DNA from: Clostridia bacterium | GTDB lineage: Bacteria; Bacillota; Clostridia; Oscillospirales; CAG-272 | Reading direction: 5' to 3' | Assembly: GCA_017467165.1 (NCBI GenBank) | Contig: JAFTST010000036.1 | Coordinates: 1-58,310 of the forward strand | Length of the DNA stretch: 58,310 nucleotides | In this document: positions 13,299 through 24,160 of the stretch, in pieces | How the letters are laid out: each line of letters starts with the position of its first letter | Position numbering within the stretch: position 1 is the first letter of the stretch | The notes under the pieces: generated by a model | The model's database searches: none | The model's input: only the letters and a program-made list of their open reading frames with translations | Told to the model about the DNA's origin: nothing | Program-made: the position numbers and the translations under genes

Positions 13299-13670
13299 AT
13301 GACCAAGCAAAGAGCGGCTATACTTGATATTATTCGCTCGGACAAATCTCATCACACCGCCGACGAAATCTTTAGGCTTGCACGGCAACGGCTGCCCGGT
13401 ATATCTCTGGCGACGGTTTATAACAACCTGCACGCGCTCGAGAATATGGGGCTTATCCGCCGAATTACCGCCGAGCGTGATGCCGACAGATATGACAGCT
13501 CCTTCATCCCTCACGGGCACGTGGTGTGCGAGAGGTGCGGGAAAATGTGGGACTTCAATATCGACGGCCTTGATGGACTTTTGTCCGACGCTATCGGCTC
13601 GGAGTTTTCATCCTACGAGCTGAAGGTGAGAAGCCTGTGTGACAGGTGCAGAAAAAACGGCGTGGCGTAA
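13299..13670 (+). CDS. perR: Fur-family peroxide-sensing repressor PerR
   Basis: 123 residues. N-terminal winged helix (LATVYNNLHALENMGLI recognition region), then the dimerisation domain. The structural zinc site is CERC and CDRC. Regulatory metal ligands of PerR are present: His in SHHTADEI, Asp in DADRYD, HGH, and the Asp of MWDF that favours PerR over Fur type. Oxidation of ligand histidines by peroxide is the known sensing mechanism. A consensus PerR box lies in its promoter region, and rubrerythrin follows 35 bases later, so it probably represses itself and that gene. The N-terminus is short but complete for the DNA-binding domain. Confidence 0.92.
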   Translation: MTKQRAAILDIIRSDKSHHTADEIFRLARQRLPGISLATVYNNLHALENMGLIRRITAERDADRYDSSFIPHGHVVCERCGKMWDFNIDGLDGLLSDAIGSEFSSYELKVRSLCDRCRKNGVA

Positions 13671-13705
13671 CTACGAATAAAATTATTTTTTAAGGAGAAA
13701 TCAAA

Positions 13706-14239
13706 ATGGATCTCAAGGGAACGAAAACCGAACAAAATCTTATGACCGCATTCGCAGGCGAGTCTCAGGCAAGAAACAAGTACACCTACTTCGCATCGGT
13801 TGCTAAGAAGGAGGGCTACGAGCAGATCGCGGCTATCTTCCTTCAGACCGCAGAGAACGAGAAGGAGCACGCTAAGCTCTGGTTCAAGGCTCTTGGCGGA
13901 CTTTCCGACACAGCTGCTAACCTTCTTGCAGCGGCAGAGGGCGAGAACTATGAGTGGACCGATATGTACGCTCAGTTCGCTAAGGACGCTGAGGAGGAGG
14001 GCTTCAAGGCTCTTGCTTATCAGTTCCGCGCAGTAGCTGCTATCGAGAAGTCTCACGAGGAGAGATACAGAGCGCTTCTTAACAACGTTGAGATGCAGCA
14101 GGTGTTCGAGAAGGGCGAGATGACTATGTGGGAGTGCAGAAACTGCGGACATCTCGTTATGGGCAAGAAGGCGCCCCCCGTATGCCCCGTATGCGCTCAT
14201 CCTCAGGCATACTTCGAGGTCAGAAAAGAGAACTATTAA
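13706..14239 (+). CDS. rbr: Rubrerythrin
   Basis: 177 residues behind AAGGAG. The ferritin-like di-iron domain carries the EXXH-type ligands ([40 protein letters not shown]). A C-terminal rubredoxin domain follows with CRNCG and [11 protein letters not shown]. The protein reduces hydrogen peroxide to water in the cytosol of anaerobes, with electrons from rubredoxin or NADH oxidoreductases. It lies behind perR and is likely released from repression by peroxide. The codon use is strongly biased, as in highly expressed genes. Confidence 0.96.
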
Positions 14240-17568: not shown

Positions 17569-17572
17569 AAGA

Positions 17573-17600
17573 AAATGCCACCCGAGCGGGTGGCATTTTT
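17573..17600 (+). terminator. Intrinsic terminator of the two-component operon
   Basis: Stem GCCACCC (17577-17583), loop GAGC, GGGTGGC (17588-17594), A-run 5' and T-run 3'. The stem sequence equals those at 956 and 3289. Confidence 0.88.
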
Positions 17601-17642: not shown

Positions 17643-20225
17643 TCAGCCCTTTTTCTTATATTTTTCGGCGAGCTCGGCGATTTCCTCTGCGGTGCTGTTG
17701 AGCTCCTCTCTGAGCTCCTTAGGGCTGACTCGCAGGGCACCGTTGCCGAGTATGATAAATTGCTCGTCCATATCCGAGGTTACGACTCTGACCGTGTTTT
17801 CCCTTGCTATTTCGTAGGTCGTTCGCTCTATATATGCGTCTGCGGTCTGGCGCTCCTTGGTGTAGATAACGGTGAGCTCACCGTATCTTTCGATGCTGCC
17901 CTTGCCATCCTTAACCATATAGGCGTCGAACACTATGATAACCTTGCACCTTCTTATAGCGGAGTAGCTGCACATCAGGCGGATGAGGGTATCTCTTGCC
18001 AGCGACAAATCGACCGCCGACACCACTCTCAGCTCGTCCCAGGCGTGGATAACGTTATAGCCGTCGACGATAAGGTAGTCGTCGCCCTTTTTCCTCGGCT
18101 TCGGCGCTTTTTTGGGCTTCTGCTCCTCGCTTTCGTTGACCCTTTTTTCGACGGGGGCGCGCTTTTTCGGCTTTCCGTAGGTAGCCTCAAAAATCCGCAT
18201 CAGCTCCTTGTCCTCCTCCGCCGTGCCTCCGTAGCGCAGGGCTCGGGCTCTCTTGGATATCTCCGTCTTTTCGTCGTCTTCCCTTGCAGATACGTCGGGC
18301 GGCGCGTGCATCTTTTCGTCTGCCTCGTACCAGGGCACGGAATATCCCGCTCCCGCGCGGCAGAAAACCGAGCCTGACGGATTTCTCTCGTCGAGCTCTG
18401 CCGTGTAGCCCGAGCTTTCAATCACCTCGCTCGCGTTGTGCGCGGGGCGATATGCTCCCGGGGTTAAAAGCATCTGCCCGTGACCGTGGGTGTAGGCTCT
18501 CAGCGTCATAGGATATGAGCGTATGGTTGCAACGGGACACACACCCGTCACGCTGACGGTCTGTCCGTTTGATTCGGTCGAGTCAATATCGCCGTGCATA
18601 TTCGAGATGTCTGTCAGAAGTCTTCCGAGATTTGACACGGGTAGCTCTATTCTGAACTCGAAGGTGGGCTCAAGAAGCACAGATTTCGCCTTCATAAGCC
18701 CCTGTCTTATAGCGCGGTAGGTCGCGGCTCTGAAATCGCCGCCGACGGTATGCTTCTGGTGAGCTCTGCCTCCGATAACGGTAATTCTGACGTCGGTCAG
18801 GGGAGCTCCGACGAGCACGCCGCGGTGAACCTTTTCCTCAACGTGCGTGGCGATAAGCCTCTGCCAGCTAAGAGCGAGGCGGTCTCTGTCACAGTCGAGC
18901 TCGCACACTATCCCGCTGCCCTCGTCGAGAGGCTCTATCCGAAGATGCACCTCGGCGTAGTGTCCCACGGGCTCGAAATGCCCCGAGCCGATAACCTCTG
19001 TGAGTATAGTTTCTCTGTATAATATCCTGCCTTCGTCAAATCCGACCTCGATGCCGAGCCTGTCGGCGATAAGTCTTATGAGAACCTCTCTTTGTATCTC
19101 TCCCATCAGGCTTACCCTTATTTCGCGGCTCTCGCCGTCGTAGGAAAGCGAGAGTGAGGGCTCCTCCTCGGCAAGCTGACTGAGGGCGAGATAGGTCGCG
19201 TGGGGATCAGCCCCGTCGGGCAGAATCATTCTGTAGCACAGAGGCGGCTCGAGCATAGCGACGTCGTTAGCCTCAAAGCCAAGTCCCATACCCGCCGCCG
19301 TTCCGGACAGCCCATACAGCGCGACAACGTCACCGGGGAGAGCTTCCTTCAGGGGAGTCGAGCGCTCGGCGGAAAATACCCGTATCTGCTCGACCTTTTC
19401 GGTTATAGTATCGGCGCCTCGCTTTATTTCTACGGTGTCCTTGGGGCGAAGAATACCGCCCGTTATTTTGGCGAAGGAGATTCGCGCTCCGCTCTTGTCG
19501 CGCGTTATCTTATAGACCTTGGCACCGAATATATTTCTCTGGTATTCTGTGGGGAGGGTGTACTTATCTATTCCGCGAAGGAGCTCCCTCACGCCCTCGA
19601 GCTTGAGGGCTGAGCCAAAAAAGCAGGGGAATATTTTCCTTGCTCTTATCCTCTCGGCTATATCCTTCGACGTGGGCATAATTCCTTCAAAATATGATCC
19701 CATCAGCCTCTCGTCGCTCGTCGCGACCTCTTCAAAAAAGCTGTCAGCTCCATCGCTGTTAAAGTCAATGCAGCCCGTCGAGAGCGCGCACTTGAGCTCG
19801 TCGCATATCTCGCGCCTGAGCCTTGTCGAAAGGTCGGTCTTGTTGACAAAAATGAGGGTGGGTATCCTCCTTGCCGCGAGCAGTCGCCAGAGCGTGCGGG
19901 TATGAGCTGTAACCCCGTCCGTGGCGCTGATAATCAGAATAGCGTAGTCCTCTATGGCAAGCGTGCGCTCGGTTTCGCAGGAGAAATCAATATGCCCGGG
20001 AGTATCGATAAGAGTGATATGGGTATCCCCCGTGTCAAATATAGCCTGCTTTGAAAAGACGGTGATGCCCCTTTCTCTCTCGAGGGCGTGGGTATCAAGA
20101 TGCGCGTCGCGCCTGTCAACCCTGCCAAGGCGGTCGGTAGCGCCCGAGAGGTACAGCATCGCCTCGGAGAGCGTCGTTTTTCCCGCGTCAACGTGAGCCA
20201 GAACACCAACGACTATGTTTTTCAT
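17643..20225 (-). CDS. Ribosome-protection-type translational GTPase fused to a Rae1/YacP-like NYN endonuclease
   Basis: 860 residues. Residues 1-650 are an EF-G-like translational GTPase of the TetM/TetO group: G1 AHVDAGKTT (10-18), G2 ERGIT (51-55), DTPGH (74-78), NKTD (128-131), then domains II-V. Residues 655-714 are a charged linker (KPKKRAPVEK, KKAPKPRKKG). Residues 715-860 align by eye along their length with Bacillus Rae1 (YacP), the A-site mRNA endonuclease: VDGYNVIHAW (D721), VIIVFDAYMVK (D767), YTKERQTADAYIE (D796), VTSDMDEQ (D818). The TetM loop that contacts tetracycline (TetM YSPVS) is replaced by HQKHTVGGDFR, arguing against drug resistance. Inference: GTP-driven delivery of a nuclease to the A site of stalled ribosomes. 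Confidence 0.9.
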   Translation of the reverse strand: MKNIVVGVLAHVDAGKTTLSEAMLYLSGATDRLGRVDRRDAHLDTHALERERGITVFSKQAIFDTGDTHITLIDTPGHIDFSCETERTLAIEDYAILIISATDGVTAHTRTLWRLLAARRIPTLIFVNKTDLSTRLRREICDELKCALSTGCIDFNSDGADSFFEEVATSDERLMGSYFEGIMPTSKDIAERIRARKIFPCFFGSALKLEGVRELLRGIDKYTLPTEYQRNIFGAKVYKITRDKSGARISFAKITGGILRPKDTVEIKRGADTITEKVEQIRVFSAERSTPLKEALPGDVVALYGLSGTAAGMGLGFEANDVAMLEPPLCYRMILPDGADPHATYLALSQLAEEEPSLSLSYDGESREIRVSLMGEIQREVLIRLIADRLGIEVGFDEGRILYRETILTEVIGSGHFEPVGHYAEVHLRIEPLDEGSGIVCELDCDRDRLALSWQRLIATHVEEKVHRGVLVGAPLTDVRITVIGGRAHQKHTVGGDFRAATYRAIRQGLMKAKSVLLEPTFEFRIELPVSNLGRLLTDISNMHGDIDSTESNGQTVSVTGVCPVATIRSYPMTLRAYTHGHGQMLLTPGAYRPAHNASEVIESSGYTAELDERNPSGSVFCRAGAGYSVPWYEADEKMHAPPDVSAREDDEKTEISKRARALRYGGTAEEDKELMRIFEATYGKPKKRAPVEKRVNESEEQKPKKAPKPRKKGDDYLIVDGYNVIHAWDELRVVSAVDLSLARDTLIRLMCSYSAIRRCKVIIVFDAYMVKDGKGSIERYGELTVIYTKERQTADAYIERTTYEIARENTVRVVTSDMDEQFIILGNGALRVSPKELREELNSTAEEIAELAEKYKKKG

Positions 20226-20259
20226 ATATACCGACCTCCCTTCGTAATTCTTTTATTGA

Positions 20260-20292
20260 AAAGTCAGCCTGACCGAAAGTTAGGCTGACTTG
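20260..20292 (-). terminator. Terminator of the PH-like membrane protein gene
   Basis: Stem AGTCAGCCT (20262-20270) with AGGCTGACT (20282-20290); the T-run is on the minus strand, ahead of the GTPase fusion gene, whose own promoter in the remaining 35 bases is not evident. Confidence 0.75.
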
Positions 20293-21289: not shown

Positions 21290-24160
21290 TTATTCTGTAC
21301 GAAGCGCTACCACGGGGTCCTTCTTGGACGCGCTCGATGCGGGAATCAGGCCCGATATGAGAGTCAGACCTATCGAGAGGAGCACGAGCAGCACCGCCTG
21401 AGATATGGGCAGCGCGGCAATGCGCGAATAGCCGATTAGCGGCTTCAGGATAAGGTTGACAATGACAGAGATAAGATAGGTCGTGACAACACCTATGATG
21501 CCCGCGAGAGAGCCGATAATGAAGGTTTCTGCGATAAAGAGGTGGCTGACGTCCTTTTTCCTTCCGCCGAGCGAGCGGATAACGCCTATTTCCTTGATTC
21601 GTTCAACAACCGATACGTAGGTGATGATACCTATCATTACCGTTGATACAACGAGCGAGATGGAGGTGAAGGCGATAAGGGCGTAGGAGATAACGTCAAT
21701 CATAGTGTTAATCATATCTATGATTATCTCCAGGGTGTCCGTGTAGGAGACGTTGGCTCTCTCCGAATCGGTATAAGTCTTTCCGTTGACCGTCAGGTCG
21801 TCCTTGCTGTTCCACTTATCAAGATAGTCGGTGACAAGGTTCTTCGAGTCGAACGAGAGCGGATAGATTTTGACACTGTTGGCAACGTCAATTCCGCCTA
21901 GTGAGCGCGCGCCGATTGTCTTCATAGAGACGAGAGTGCTGATATTAACGCTGGAGCCGCCGGAGCCCTCCTGCTCTCCGCCGCCCGCAGAGCCCATAGA
22001 GCCCATAAGGTCTGTGGCGCTGAGCGACTCGCCGACGAAGGCGCGGTCGGATTTGATAACGGTCTTTCCTTCCTCGTCGGGTGTGACGGAGCGATAGTTA
22101 AAGTCATAGAATACGCCAATCGCGCTTCCGTTGAAAACGGTTGAGGTGATGTCGCCCTTTTCCTTGACGTAGTCGACGATTTCACTATTCATATTCCTTT
22201 CGAGAACGTGGTTGGTGAGAGCCTCCGTGTAGTAGATACCGGAGGAAAGACAGCCGTAGTTGGTCTCCTCGTTAGCTATAAGAATACCCGTTATGCGAAG
22301 CTTGACGCCCTCGCTCCTTATATCCTTCGCGTCGTGGTGGTACTTGAAGGGAGTGGTGTTCATCACCTTGTAGGTGCCGTCACCGTTTGGTATCTTTATC
22401 TCGGTGTCGGTATTGTATTCATATATAGCGTTGTTGGGGTACCAGGTGAAGCTGTGCTTATCGCTGAGCAGGTCGTCGTACGTGTAGTAGGACACGTCGA
22501 GCTCGGGGTTGTAGTACTTGGCAAGGGGATCCCATTCCTCCTCGGGCTTATCCTTCGAGCTCTCGTATGCCGCCTTGTAGACCAGGTTATAGAACTCCGC
22601 CTCGGTGAAAATTCCAAGCCTGGCCAGAAGCATATCGGACAGCTCCTGGTCGCCGTTCAGAACGAGCATAACCTCGTCGTACTCGTCGGCGATCTCGCCG
22701 TACACCTCATACTGCGAGGCGATATAATCGGGGTTGTTCGGCGCCTGCTGGAAGGAGGGGGCGAGCTGTGTGACGTAGCTCGCGTATTTTGAGTAGTCGG
22801 TTTCCTTGAGAACAGATGTGTATATGTTAGTGAGGGCGGCTATCGAGATGTTGGAAACGGTCTCGCCCCCCTCGGCGTCGGTGTGAGTGAAGCTCGTATA
22901 GATAGAGTGATTCATATCTATACCGTAGCCGAAGCTCATAGCGTTATAATATTCCTTGGGCATAGCCTTGACAAAGTCAAGATACTCCGGCTTCAGCTCG
23001 TTTTTGATAAAGAACGCCTCCTCCGCCGCGGTCATTTTGGCAATGTAGGCAATCATTGAGCTGATATACGCCTTGTGAGGCTCCTTTTCGACGGAGTCGT
23101 CCGAGCCCTGATGCATCATATCGGATATGGCGTTGAAATCGTAGGCGGTTTCGGTGATTGTTATGGGGTTGCCCGAGAGCATATCGTCCTGCATTGCCGC
23201 GACGTAGCCCTTGATGCCCGCCGAGAAGGCAAGCACCATAGCGATGCCGATAATACCTATCGAGCCCGCGATGCCGACCATAACCGTGCGTCCCTTCTTG
23301 GAGAGCAGGTTTCTAGCCGAGAGCATCAGGGCGGTGAGGACGGACATCTTCGCCTTTTCCTTTTTCTTCTTTTTCTCCTTGACAAGCTTTTTCCGCTCAG
23401 CCTCGGCGCACGCCTCGAGCTCTGCTCTTTCCTTTTCGGCTATCGCCAGAAGCTCTGCGAGCTCCTTCGCCTCCTCTGCCTCGGTCATAGGATTGGTATC
23501 CTCGAGCAGCTGTCCGTCGAGCAGACGCACTATTCTCGTGGAATACTGCTCAGCGAGCTCGGGGTTATGGGTAACCATAATAACCAGCCTCTCCTCGGAG
23601 ATCTCGCGGATAAGGTCCATAATCTGAACGCTGGTAACCGTGTCGAGCGCTCCTGTCGGCTCGTCTGCGAGGAGTATCTCGGGGTCGTTGACCAGCGCTC
23701 TGGCGATAGCGACCCTCTGGCACTGTCCGCCCGAGAGCTGATTCGGGCGCTTGTAGTACTGTCCCGAAAGTCCGACGCGGTCGAGCGCCTCCTTTGACCT
23801 CCGTGTGCGCTCCTCCTTGCCGATGCCCGCGATGGTGAGCGCGAGCTCAACGTTTCCGAGTATCGTCTGGTGGGGTATGAGGTTATAGCTCTGGAATATG
23901 AATCCAACTCTGTGGTTTCTGTACACGTCCCAATCTCTGTCGGTGTAGGACTTGGTGCTCCTTCCGTTGATGACGAGGTCACCGTCGGTGTAGTGGTCAA
24001 GTCCGCCTACTATGTTAAGCAGGGTGGTTTTTCCGCAGCCCGATGGACCGAGAATGGAGACGAACTCTGTTTTTCTGAACGAGATTGAAACACCCCTCAG
24101 GGCATTGACAACCTCGGATGAGGTGATATAATCCTTTTTTATGCCTTCCAGTTTTAGCAT
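21290..24160 (-). CDS. MacB-like ABC transporter, ATPase and FtsX-type permease in one chain
   Basis: 956 residues. Residues 1-225 are the ATPase: Walker A GPSGCGKTTLLN, signature LSGGQCQR, Walker B ILLADEPTGALD, H-loop VTHN. A charged coiled stretch (EAEEAKELAELLAIAEKERAE) follows, then one helix, a large extracellular domain of about 480 residues, and three helices with the FtsX core (SLVVSTVMIGIITYVSVVERIKEIGVIRSLGGRKKDV). This is a half-transporter that must dimerise; such systems act as mechanotransmission pumps for peptides or toxins or in signalling. No accessory adaptor protein gene is adjacent. The substrate is unknown. Confidence 0.92.
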   Translation of the reverse strand: MLKLEGIKKDYITSSEVVNALRGVSISFRKTEFVSILGPSGCGKTTLLNIVGGLDHYTDGDLVINGRSTKSYTDRDWDVYRNHRVGFIFQSYNLIPHQTILGNVELALTIAGIGKEERTRRSKEALDRVGLSGQYYKRPNQLSGGQCQRVAIARALVNDPEILLADEPTGALDTVTSVQIMDLIREISEERLVIMVTHNPELAEQYSTRIVRLLDGQLLEDTNPMTEAEEAKELAELLAIAEKERAELEACAEAERKKLVKEKKKKKEKAKMSVLTALMLSARNLLSKKGRTVMVGIAGSIGIIGIAMVLAFSAGIKGYVAAMQDDMLSGNPITITETAYDFNAISDMMHQGSDDSVEKEPHKAYISSMIAYIAKMTAAEEAFFIKNELKPEYLDFVKAMPKEYYNAMSFGYGIDMNHSIYTSFTHTDAEGGETVSNISIAALTNIYTSVLKETDYSKYASYVTQLAPSFQQAPNNPDYIASQYEVYGEIADEYDEVMLVLNGDQELSDMLLARLGIFTEAEFYNLVYKAAYESSKDKPEEEWDPLAKYYNPELDVSYYTYDDLLSDKHSFTWYPNNAIYEYNTDTEIKIPNGDGTYKVMNTTPFKYHHDAKDIRSEGVKLRITGILIANEETNYGCLSSGIYYTEALTNHVLERNMNSEIVDYVKEKGDITSTVFNGSAIGVFYDFNYRSVTPDEEGKTVIKSDRAFVGESLSATDLMGSMGSAGGGEQEGSGGSSVNISTLVSMKTIGARSLGGIDVANSVKIYPLSFDSKNLVTDYLDKWNSKDDLTVNGKTYTDSERANVSYTDTLEIIIDMINTMIDVISYALIAFTSISLVVSTVMIGIITYVSVVERIKEIGVIRSLGGRKKDVSHLFIAETFIIGSLAGIIGVVTTYLISVIVNLILKPLIGYSRIAALPISQAVLLVLLSIGLTLISGLIPASSASKKDPVVALRTE

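Follow-up and report, generated by a model that had tools for sequence, protein, structure and literature searches.

A Rae1-type nuclease domain joined to an EF-G/Tet-like GTPase in Clostridia genomes without stand-alone Rae1

Introduction

A 58,310-nucleotide stretch of a Clostridia genome, analysed here in full and called the window, carries a single gene in which a translational GTPase resembling EF-G and the tetracycline resistance (Tet) proteins is joined to an NYN nuclease domain of the Rae1 (YacP) family, which raises the question of what such a pairing does for the cell and whether it has anything to do with resistance. Rae1 is described as a translation-dependent endonuclease that cuts mRNA in the A site (PMC6613710, PMC12320835, PMC10100781), the same site of mRNA cleavage is given for RelE-family nucleases (PMC12320835), and ribosomal protection proteins are reported to bind over the A site (PMC8161019).

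The architecture itself is published. The accessible text of Atkinson 2015 (PMC4342817) describes clostridial Tet proteins with a YacP-like NYN domain in ten Clostridiales species, files them as a Tet subfamily and proposes an rRNA RNase ability and RNase-based resistance. A preliminary description of the locus, made from the sequence, had mentioned NYN-tailed TetM-like proteins in Clostridia, which is right as to architecture, the published functional guess being a different one. Among the papers listed by the literature searches, which took in few subscription papers, we found no other paper on the fusion and no functional study. New here are the mutual exclusion with stand-alone Rae1, the loss of rae1 from its usual position (once in decay), the separation from Tet-type proteins and a sister group of unfused GTPases.

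Organisation of the fusion gene and its surroundings

The open-reading frame was confirmed at 860 residues with an ATG start (Table 1). The complete EF-G/TetM-like chain read in the preliminary description was borne out, with Pfam domains to residue 597 and the GTPase motifs in place (AHVDAGKTT at residue 10, ERGIT at 51, DTPGH at 74, NKTD at 128 and GSAL at 204), and these motifs together with domains II–V make the protein an EF-2 family translational GTPase. The nuclease motifs follow (VDGYN at 720, VFDA at 765, TADAY at 794 and TSDMD at 816), and the four acidic residues named beforehand, D721, D767, D796 and D818, each lie exactly where they had been placed. The best PDB matches of the whole protein are TetO and TetM, then EF-G, and the NCBIfam EF-G equivalog TIGR00484 scores 265.7 bits, below its cut-off of 659.4, which leaves the protein outside the EF-G translocases.

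Table 1 Features of the fusion gene and its flanks (positions in the window)
Feature	Position	Strand	Basis
Fusion gene: EF-G/Tet-type GTPase and NYN_YacP (Rae1)	17643..20225	-	ORF and Pfam
GTP_EFTU GTPase domain, residues 4-223, G1-G5 motifs	19557..20216	-	Pfam, motif positions
Domain II (EF-G_D2), residues 235-309	19299..19523	-	Pfam
Domain III (EFG_III), residues 347-395	19041..19187	-	Pfam
Domain IV (EFG_IV), residues 400-514	18684..19028	-	Pfam
Domain IV tip loop HQKHTVGGDFR, residues 489-499; family signature HxKHTxGGDF	18729..18761	-	
Domain V (EFG_C), residues 516-597	18435..18680	-	Pfam
Charged linker, residues ~633-717	18075..18329	-	
Linker motif ELMRIFEATYG, residues 674-684, recurring in fused homologues	18174..18206	-	
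NYN_YacP/Rae1 nuclease domain, residues 718-858; D721, N724, D767, D796, D818	17652..18074	-	Pfam
GGGAGG, ribosome-binding-site-like, 5′ of the start	20235..20240	-	by eye
Terminator-like hairpin, 12 pairs, just 3′ of the gene	17572..17599	-	consensus scan only
Hairpin, 13 pairs, between the fusion gene and its upstream neighbour	20261..20291	.	consensus scan only

NYN_YacP, GTP_EFTU, EFG_IV and EFG_C were all present in 44 of 44 fused members scanned. Across the 59 fused rows (of 67) where it was measurable, the linker has 75–129 residues with a median of 88, and the motif ELxxIFExTYG occurs within it in 47 of 67 fused rows by the strict pattern, several of the misses being variants by eye. 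The terminator-like consensus scan found 7 such sites against 3.6 expected, and Rfam at the gathering threshold gave no match anywhere in the window.

By reading of the translations, the fusion gene is flanked by a GNAT-like open-reading frame and an unrelated one of 257 residues, and it does not occupy the rlmB-rae1-sigma position discussed below. Seventeen of the 18 named loci are fused, L044 being unfused. Across 14 loci (13 of the 18 named loci and the window) no conserved operon emerged, as no specific gene recurs beside the fusion; the open-reading frames that recur at at least 3 of the 14 are generic ABC-transporter, kinase-like, MerR-like and transporter-like genes, labelled by reading. 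Elsewhere in the window, a Fur-like regulator is followed by a rubrerythrin-like gene (13299–14239), and a 956-residue ABC transporter (21290–24160) holds an N-terminal ATPase and a long permease chain in one open-reading frame (both by reading).

The GTPase half and its relation to tetracycline resistance proteins

Residues were compared across 67 fused, 23 unfused, 12 Tet-type and 1 EF-G-like rows, partial open-reading frames left out. K16, T17, D74, H78, N128 and D131 are invariant in all 67 fused rows. At the domain IV tip, the replacement of the TetM loop by HQKHTVGGDFR was found as described, at residue 489, and the signature HxKHTxGGDF is kept in the fused and unfused rows except for 10 fused rows and 1 unfused row off the strict pattern, the unfused sister clade thus mostly sharing it. 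The corresponding loop of TetM contacts the drug site, and its form YSPVSTPxDF occurs in 0 of 67 fused and 0 of 23 unfused rows; among Tet-type rows it is found in L187 and L200, with a variant in L205. Five other Tet-type rows (L136, L139, L199, L201 and L203) carry a tip HxxHTHPxDF that resembles that of the fused family, and L188 and L202 carry variants. The earlier argument that this loop makes tetracycline resistance unlikely holds in so far as the loop is not TetM-type, but it is weaker than stated because L139, the only one of these rows compared with named genes, is 64.1% identical to an annotated tetB(P) and has a related tip.

A tree of the GTPase halves (90 rows, being 103 minus near-copies; quick IQ-TREE with SH-aLRT support only) was rooted on a divergent EF-G-like protein of the window's own genome, which sits on a very long branch. 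The fused GTPases form one group (99% SH-aLRT) of 56 fused rows and the row of a split gene in genome G105, and beside it lie 20 unfused rows (88% SH-aLRT); fused and unfused rows together stand apart from the 12 Tet-type rows (99% SH-aLRT, branch 1.04). The unfused sister GTPases come from Clostridia genomes and a Fusobacteriales MAG and, by sequence similarity, from Ligilactobacillus plasmids. GTPase-only relatives are frequent on Ligilactobacillus salivarius plasmids (H4–H25 except H6), at ~42–43% identity, and are mostly annotated as tetracycline resistance.

These observations bear on the published suggestion that the protein is a ribosomal protection protein, against tetracycline or another A-site antibiotic, whose added RNase aids resistance (PMC4342817, in its accessible text). 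The best NCBIfam match is indeed tet_protect, the plasmid relatives mostly carry a TetM/W/O/S family annotation, and the tip of L139 is of a related kind, but the tet_protect score of 402.9 bits is far below the NCBI cut-off of 775, which leaves the protein outside that family, and the separate clade, the absence of the TetM-type tip from the fused and unfused rows compared, the presence of the fusion in 104 of 292 Clostridia genomes (see below) and the lack of a recurring specific neighbour all speak against it. We consider a resistance role improbable.

The nuclease half compared with stand-alone Rae1

That the C-terminus belongs to the Rae1 family, as first proposed, is confirmed by NYN_YacP (PF05991) at residues 718–858 with 156.9 bits against a curated cut-off of 24.6, and by the B. 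subtilis YacP/Rae1 structures 5mq8 and 5mq9 (E ~5e-24), which match over residues 2–136 of 181, leaving the last ~45 residues of B. subtilis Rae1 unmatched. The catalytic aspartates are kept across homologues: D721, N724, D767, D796, D818 and Q822 do not vary in any of the 98 fused or 52 separate NYN rows (the separate ones taking in pieces of the split G105 gene).

The two kinds of domain differ in their tails. From the TSD motif to the end there are 45 residues in the window protein and 64–71 in separate NYN proteins, and among distinct tails (G105 left out) a tail of <60 residues was found in 53 of 88 fused and 0 of 45 separate ones. A basic, LExxRR-like C-terminal helix is present in 41 of 45 separate tails versus 4 of 88 fused tails, against a background for the pattern of 31 in 1760 random 20-mers of fused proteins, and the window protein is without it. 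The accessible text of PMC6613710 reports a suppressor change in B. subtilis Rae1, R166P, that is read as loss of function; by our own count on the B. subtilis chain numbering this residue falls in the basic helix. Given the loss of the helix in most fused tails, we infer that ribosome contact may have passed from the basic helix of Rae1 to the GTPase half.

A substrate other than mRNA deserves mention here: the NYN domain could be an RNase directed to the ribosome whose target is rRNA or tRNA, in maturation or in cleavage of faulty ribosomes. The GTPase would place it near the decoding centre, and the rRNA RNase ability proposed for clostridial Tet proteins (PMC4342817) points the same way, but the catalytic positions are identical in fused and separate NYN domains, and the stand-alone Rae1 that the fusion appears to displace is described as cutting A-site mRNA in B. 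subtilis (PMC6613710, PMC12320835). We regard cleavage of rRNA or tRNA as unlikely.

Fusion and stand-alone Rae1 exclude one another in the genomes sampled

The distribution was determined in a class sample of 292 Clostridia genomes, comprising the window's own and others at least 85% complete. The fusion is present in 104, stand-alone Rae1 in 90, neither in 98 and both in 0, so that NYN_YacP occurs in 194 of 292 genomes, all 104 fusion genomes among them. A whole-protein match at E 1e-70 was obtained in 126 of the 292, divided into 104 with the fusion (a count that takes in genes cut by contig ends and the G347 gene, interrupted by an in-frame stop), 17 in which the match is an unfused GTPase of that family, 4 with a more distant Tet-type protein only and 1 with a fragment (G360). 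In all 90 stand-alone genomes the separate NYN open-reading frames measure 160–216 residues. Fisher's exact test on the raw counts, kinship not being corrected for, gives p ~2e-22 for the exclusion, which could partly reflect shared ancestry; five families (f24, f25, f29, f30 and f49) and three genera (g105 counted) nevertheless hold fusion and stand-alone genomes alike.

Two candidate complications were set aside. A chance fusion or assembly artefact is rejected on the recurrence of fusions across the class sample and at 17 of the 18 named loci, and in three genomes that seemed to hold both the fusion and a stand-alone gene the second match scored 21 bits over positions 3–49, below the cut-off.

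Across the phylum (299 genomes, partly overlapping the class sample) 18 genomes carry the fusion, none with a second NYN by reading of the matches, and all three unfused-GTPase genomes have a separate Rae1. Among 146 genomes of the window's family no separate Rae1 was found, all 47 NYN matches being fusions or their pieces (one of them, G105, split by an in-frame stop); four genomes have an unfused GTPase without NYN, one has a fragment and seven have distant Tet-type proteins only. No NYN match occurs in 99 of the 146, nor in two of the three other sampled genomes of the genus, both 97–98% complete; the fusion is dispensable within the window's family and genus. A check for a stand-alone rae1 in the window's genome, suggested in the preliminary description, revealed no second NYN_YacP match in an assembly that is 73.5% complete.

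The unfused GTPase is not significantly tied to stand-alone Rae1 in the class sample, where stand-alone Rae1 is present in 11 of the 17 genomes with the unfused GTPase and in 79 of the remaining 171 non-fusion genomes (p = 0.20). As 6 of the 17 are without any NYN_YacP match, and the four family genomes mentioned above likewise, a GTPase of this family can exist without Rae1.

Loss of rae1 at the rlmB locus

One stand-alone genome has the gene order cysS-mrnC-thyX-rlmB-rae1-sigma-tuf (gene names by reading). We compared the 1.3–1.5 kb downstream of rlmB in 24 chosen genomes, 17 fused and 7 stand-alone. Five of the seven stand-alone genomes have rae1 between rlmB and the sigma gene, synteny being missing in the other two; in 15 of the 17 fusion genomes the sigma gene comes next after rlmB and there is no intact rae1, synteny again being missing in two. 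Three of these 15 are the genomes with a sub-cutoff second NYN match. In genus g100, two genomes show one state and two the other.

A search of these loci with 150 NYN queries found decayed remains of rae1 in the interval from rlmB to the sigma gene of the fusion genome G168 (L232:2517–2798). This stretch is 45.9% identical to residues 47–142 of the rae1 product of G198, which belongs to the same genus (E 1.8e-17), and has no open frame of 70 codons. At the other loci the best NYN match was E 6.6e-4 or weaker, this value belonging to a marginal 31-residue match in G163 that is perhaps also a remnant. G348 has a gap of 625 nt, about as wide as where rae1 is present, in which no NYN match was better than E 0.057.

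History of the fusion

A tree of NYN domains (130 rows, being 150 minus near-copies and short ones; 145 columns) does not unite the fused rows in one clade but needs four changes, three of them forced by starred branches; among the rows out of place are the split gene, a row on a long branch and the separate NYN of G366. The pattern would fit a single fusion followed by exchange or release of the NYN domain. G366 encodes an unfused GTPase alongside a separate NYN whose place on the tree is with fused NYN domains (L066, L178), which hints at release. In-frame stops interrupt two homologues, L193 (G347) and L198 (G105), in one case within the GTPase half and in the other where the two halves join, and may be sequencing error, decay or true separation. 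Towards the homologue L045 the two halves are about equally conserved, at 68.6% identity for the GTPase and 73.8% for the NYN half.

A proposed role at the ribosomal A site

The reading that we favour, at a probability of roughly 55%, sees the protein as an endoribonuclease of the Rae1 type borne by a dedicated EF-G/Tet-like ribosome GTPase. In its lineage it would take the place of stand-alone Rae1, and its GTPase would bring the nuclease to ribosomes that have the A site open. Replacement of stand-alone Rae1 by the fusion is well supported by the genome comparisons; that the protein binds ribosomes, works in the order set out next, cuts A-site mRNA and is coupled to GTP are proposals. The GTPase would bind paused or stalled ribosomes whose A site is open, domain IV would probe or clear the decoding region, and GTP hydrolysis would make the GTPase let go of the ribosome. 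The NYN domain, held by the linker, would then take the vacated A site and cut the mRNA, which would open the way to decay and ordinary rescue. We propose that the halves act in sequence because domain IV and Rae1 would each be expected to occupy the A site, which should not hold both at once.

The fusion might instead be a tether only, in which the GTPase keeps its own EF-G/Tet-like job in translation and Rae1 rides along uncoupled from GTP hydrolysis; this overlaps with our favoured reading on the substrate and differs on GTP coupling. A long linker of variable length and the unfused GTPases without NYN_YacP, in the class sample and in the family, would suit such an arrangement, but the fusion is kept in 56 of the 57 rows of its clade, the halves are conserved to a similar degree and the linker often carries ELxxIFExTYG, and we think an uncoupled tether possible but rather unlikely.

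There is a bolder version of A-site delivery of the nuclease by the GTPase, which we put forward tentatively, as well short of an even bet. The protein would represent a new class of rescue factor, a translational GTPase with its own A-site mRNA nuclease in which GTP hydrolysis hands over a cleared A site, and the unfused sisters would form an unrecognised subfamily of translational GTPases whose task is to ready stalled ribosomes for a partner in trans, be it Rae1 or some other.

A natural GTPase–Rae1 fusion offers an experimental handle on how Rae1 reaches the A site and chooses paused ribosomes. The common 'TetM/TetW/TetO/TetS family' annotation may here stand on a translation-quality factor instead of a resistance gene; the unfused sister GTPases, too, are often annotated as tetracycline resistance, and a misapplied label would matter for resistance-gene counts.

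Comparison with known systems

TetM and TetO share the five-domain layout of the fused protein, TetO (4v6v_A1) matching it as a whole at E 9.4e-68, but the fused protein has the tip HxKHTxGGDF in place of YSPVSTPxDF, belongs to a separate clade and bears an NYN tail. The tetB(P)-like L139 is closer in its tip, HxxHTHPxDF, yet it is without NYN and groups with the Tet-type rows outside the clade of fused and unfused GTPases. RelE-family nucleases are alike in A-site mRNA cutting, but they involve no GTPase, have an unrelated fold and act in a toxin–antitoxin setting. B. subtilis Rae1/YacP (5mq8, 5mq9) has a homologous NYN domain, and the fused domain has the same catalytic positions as the separate NYN rows; unlike stand-alone Rae1, the NYN domain of the window sits in an 860-residue GTPase protein from which the basic C-terminal helix is missing. 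The nearest published counterpart is the set of Tet proteins with a YacP-like NYN domain of Atkinson 2015 (PMC4342817), which, compared by their description in the accessible text, have the same architecture, and the window protein belongs to that kind; the fused proteins analysed here form a clade separate from Tet-type proteins, turn up in 104 of the 292 sampled Clostridia genomes and never accompany stand-alone Rae1 there.
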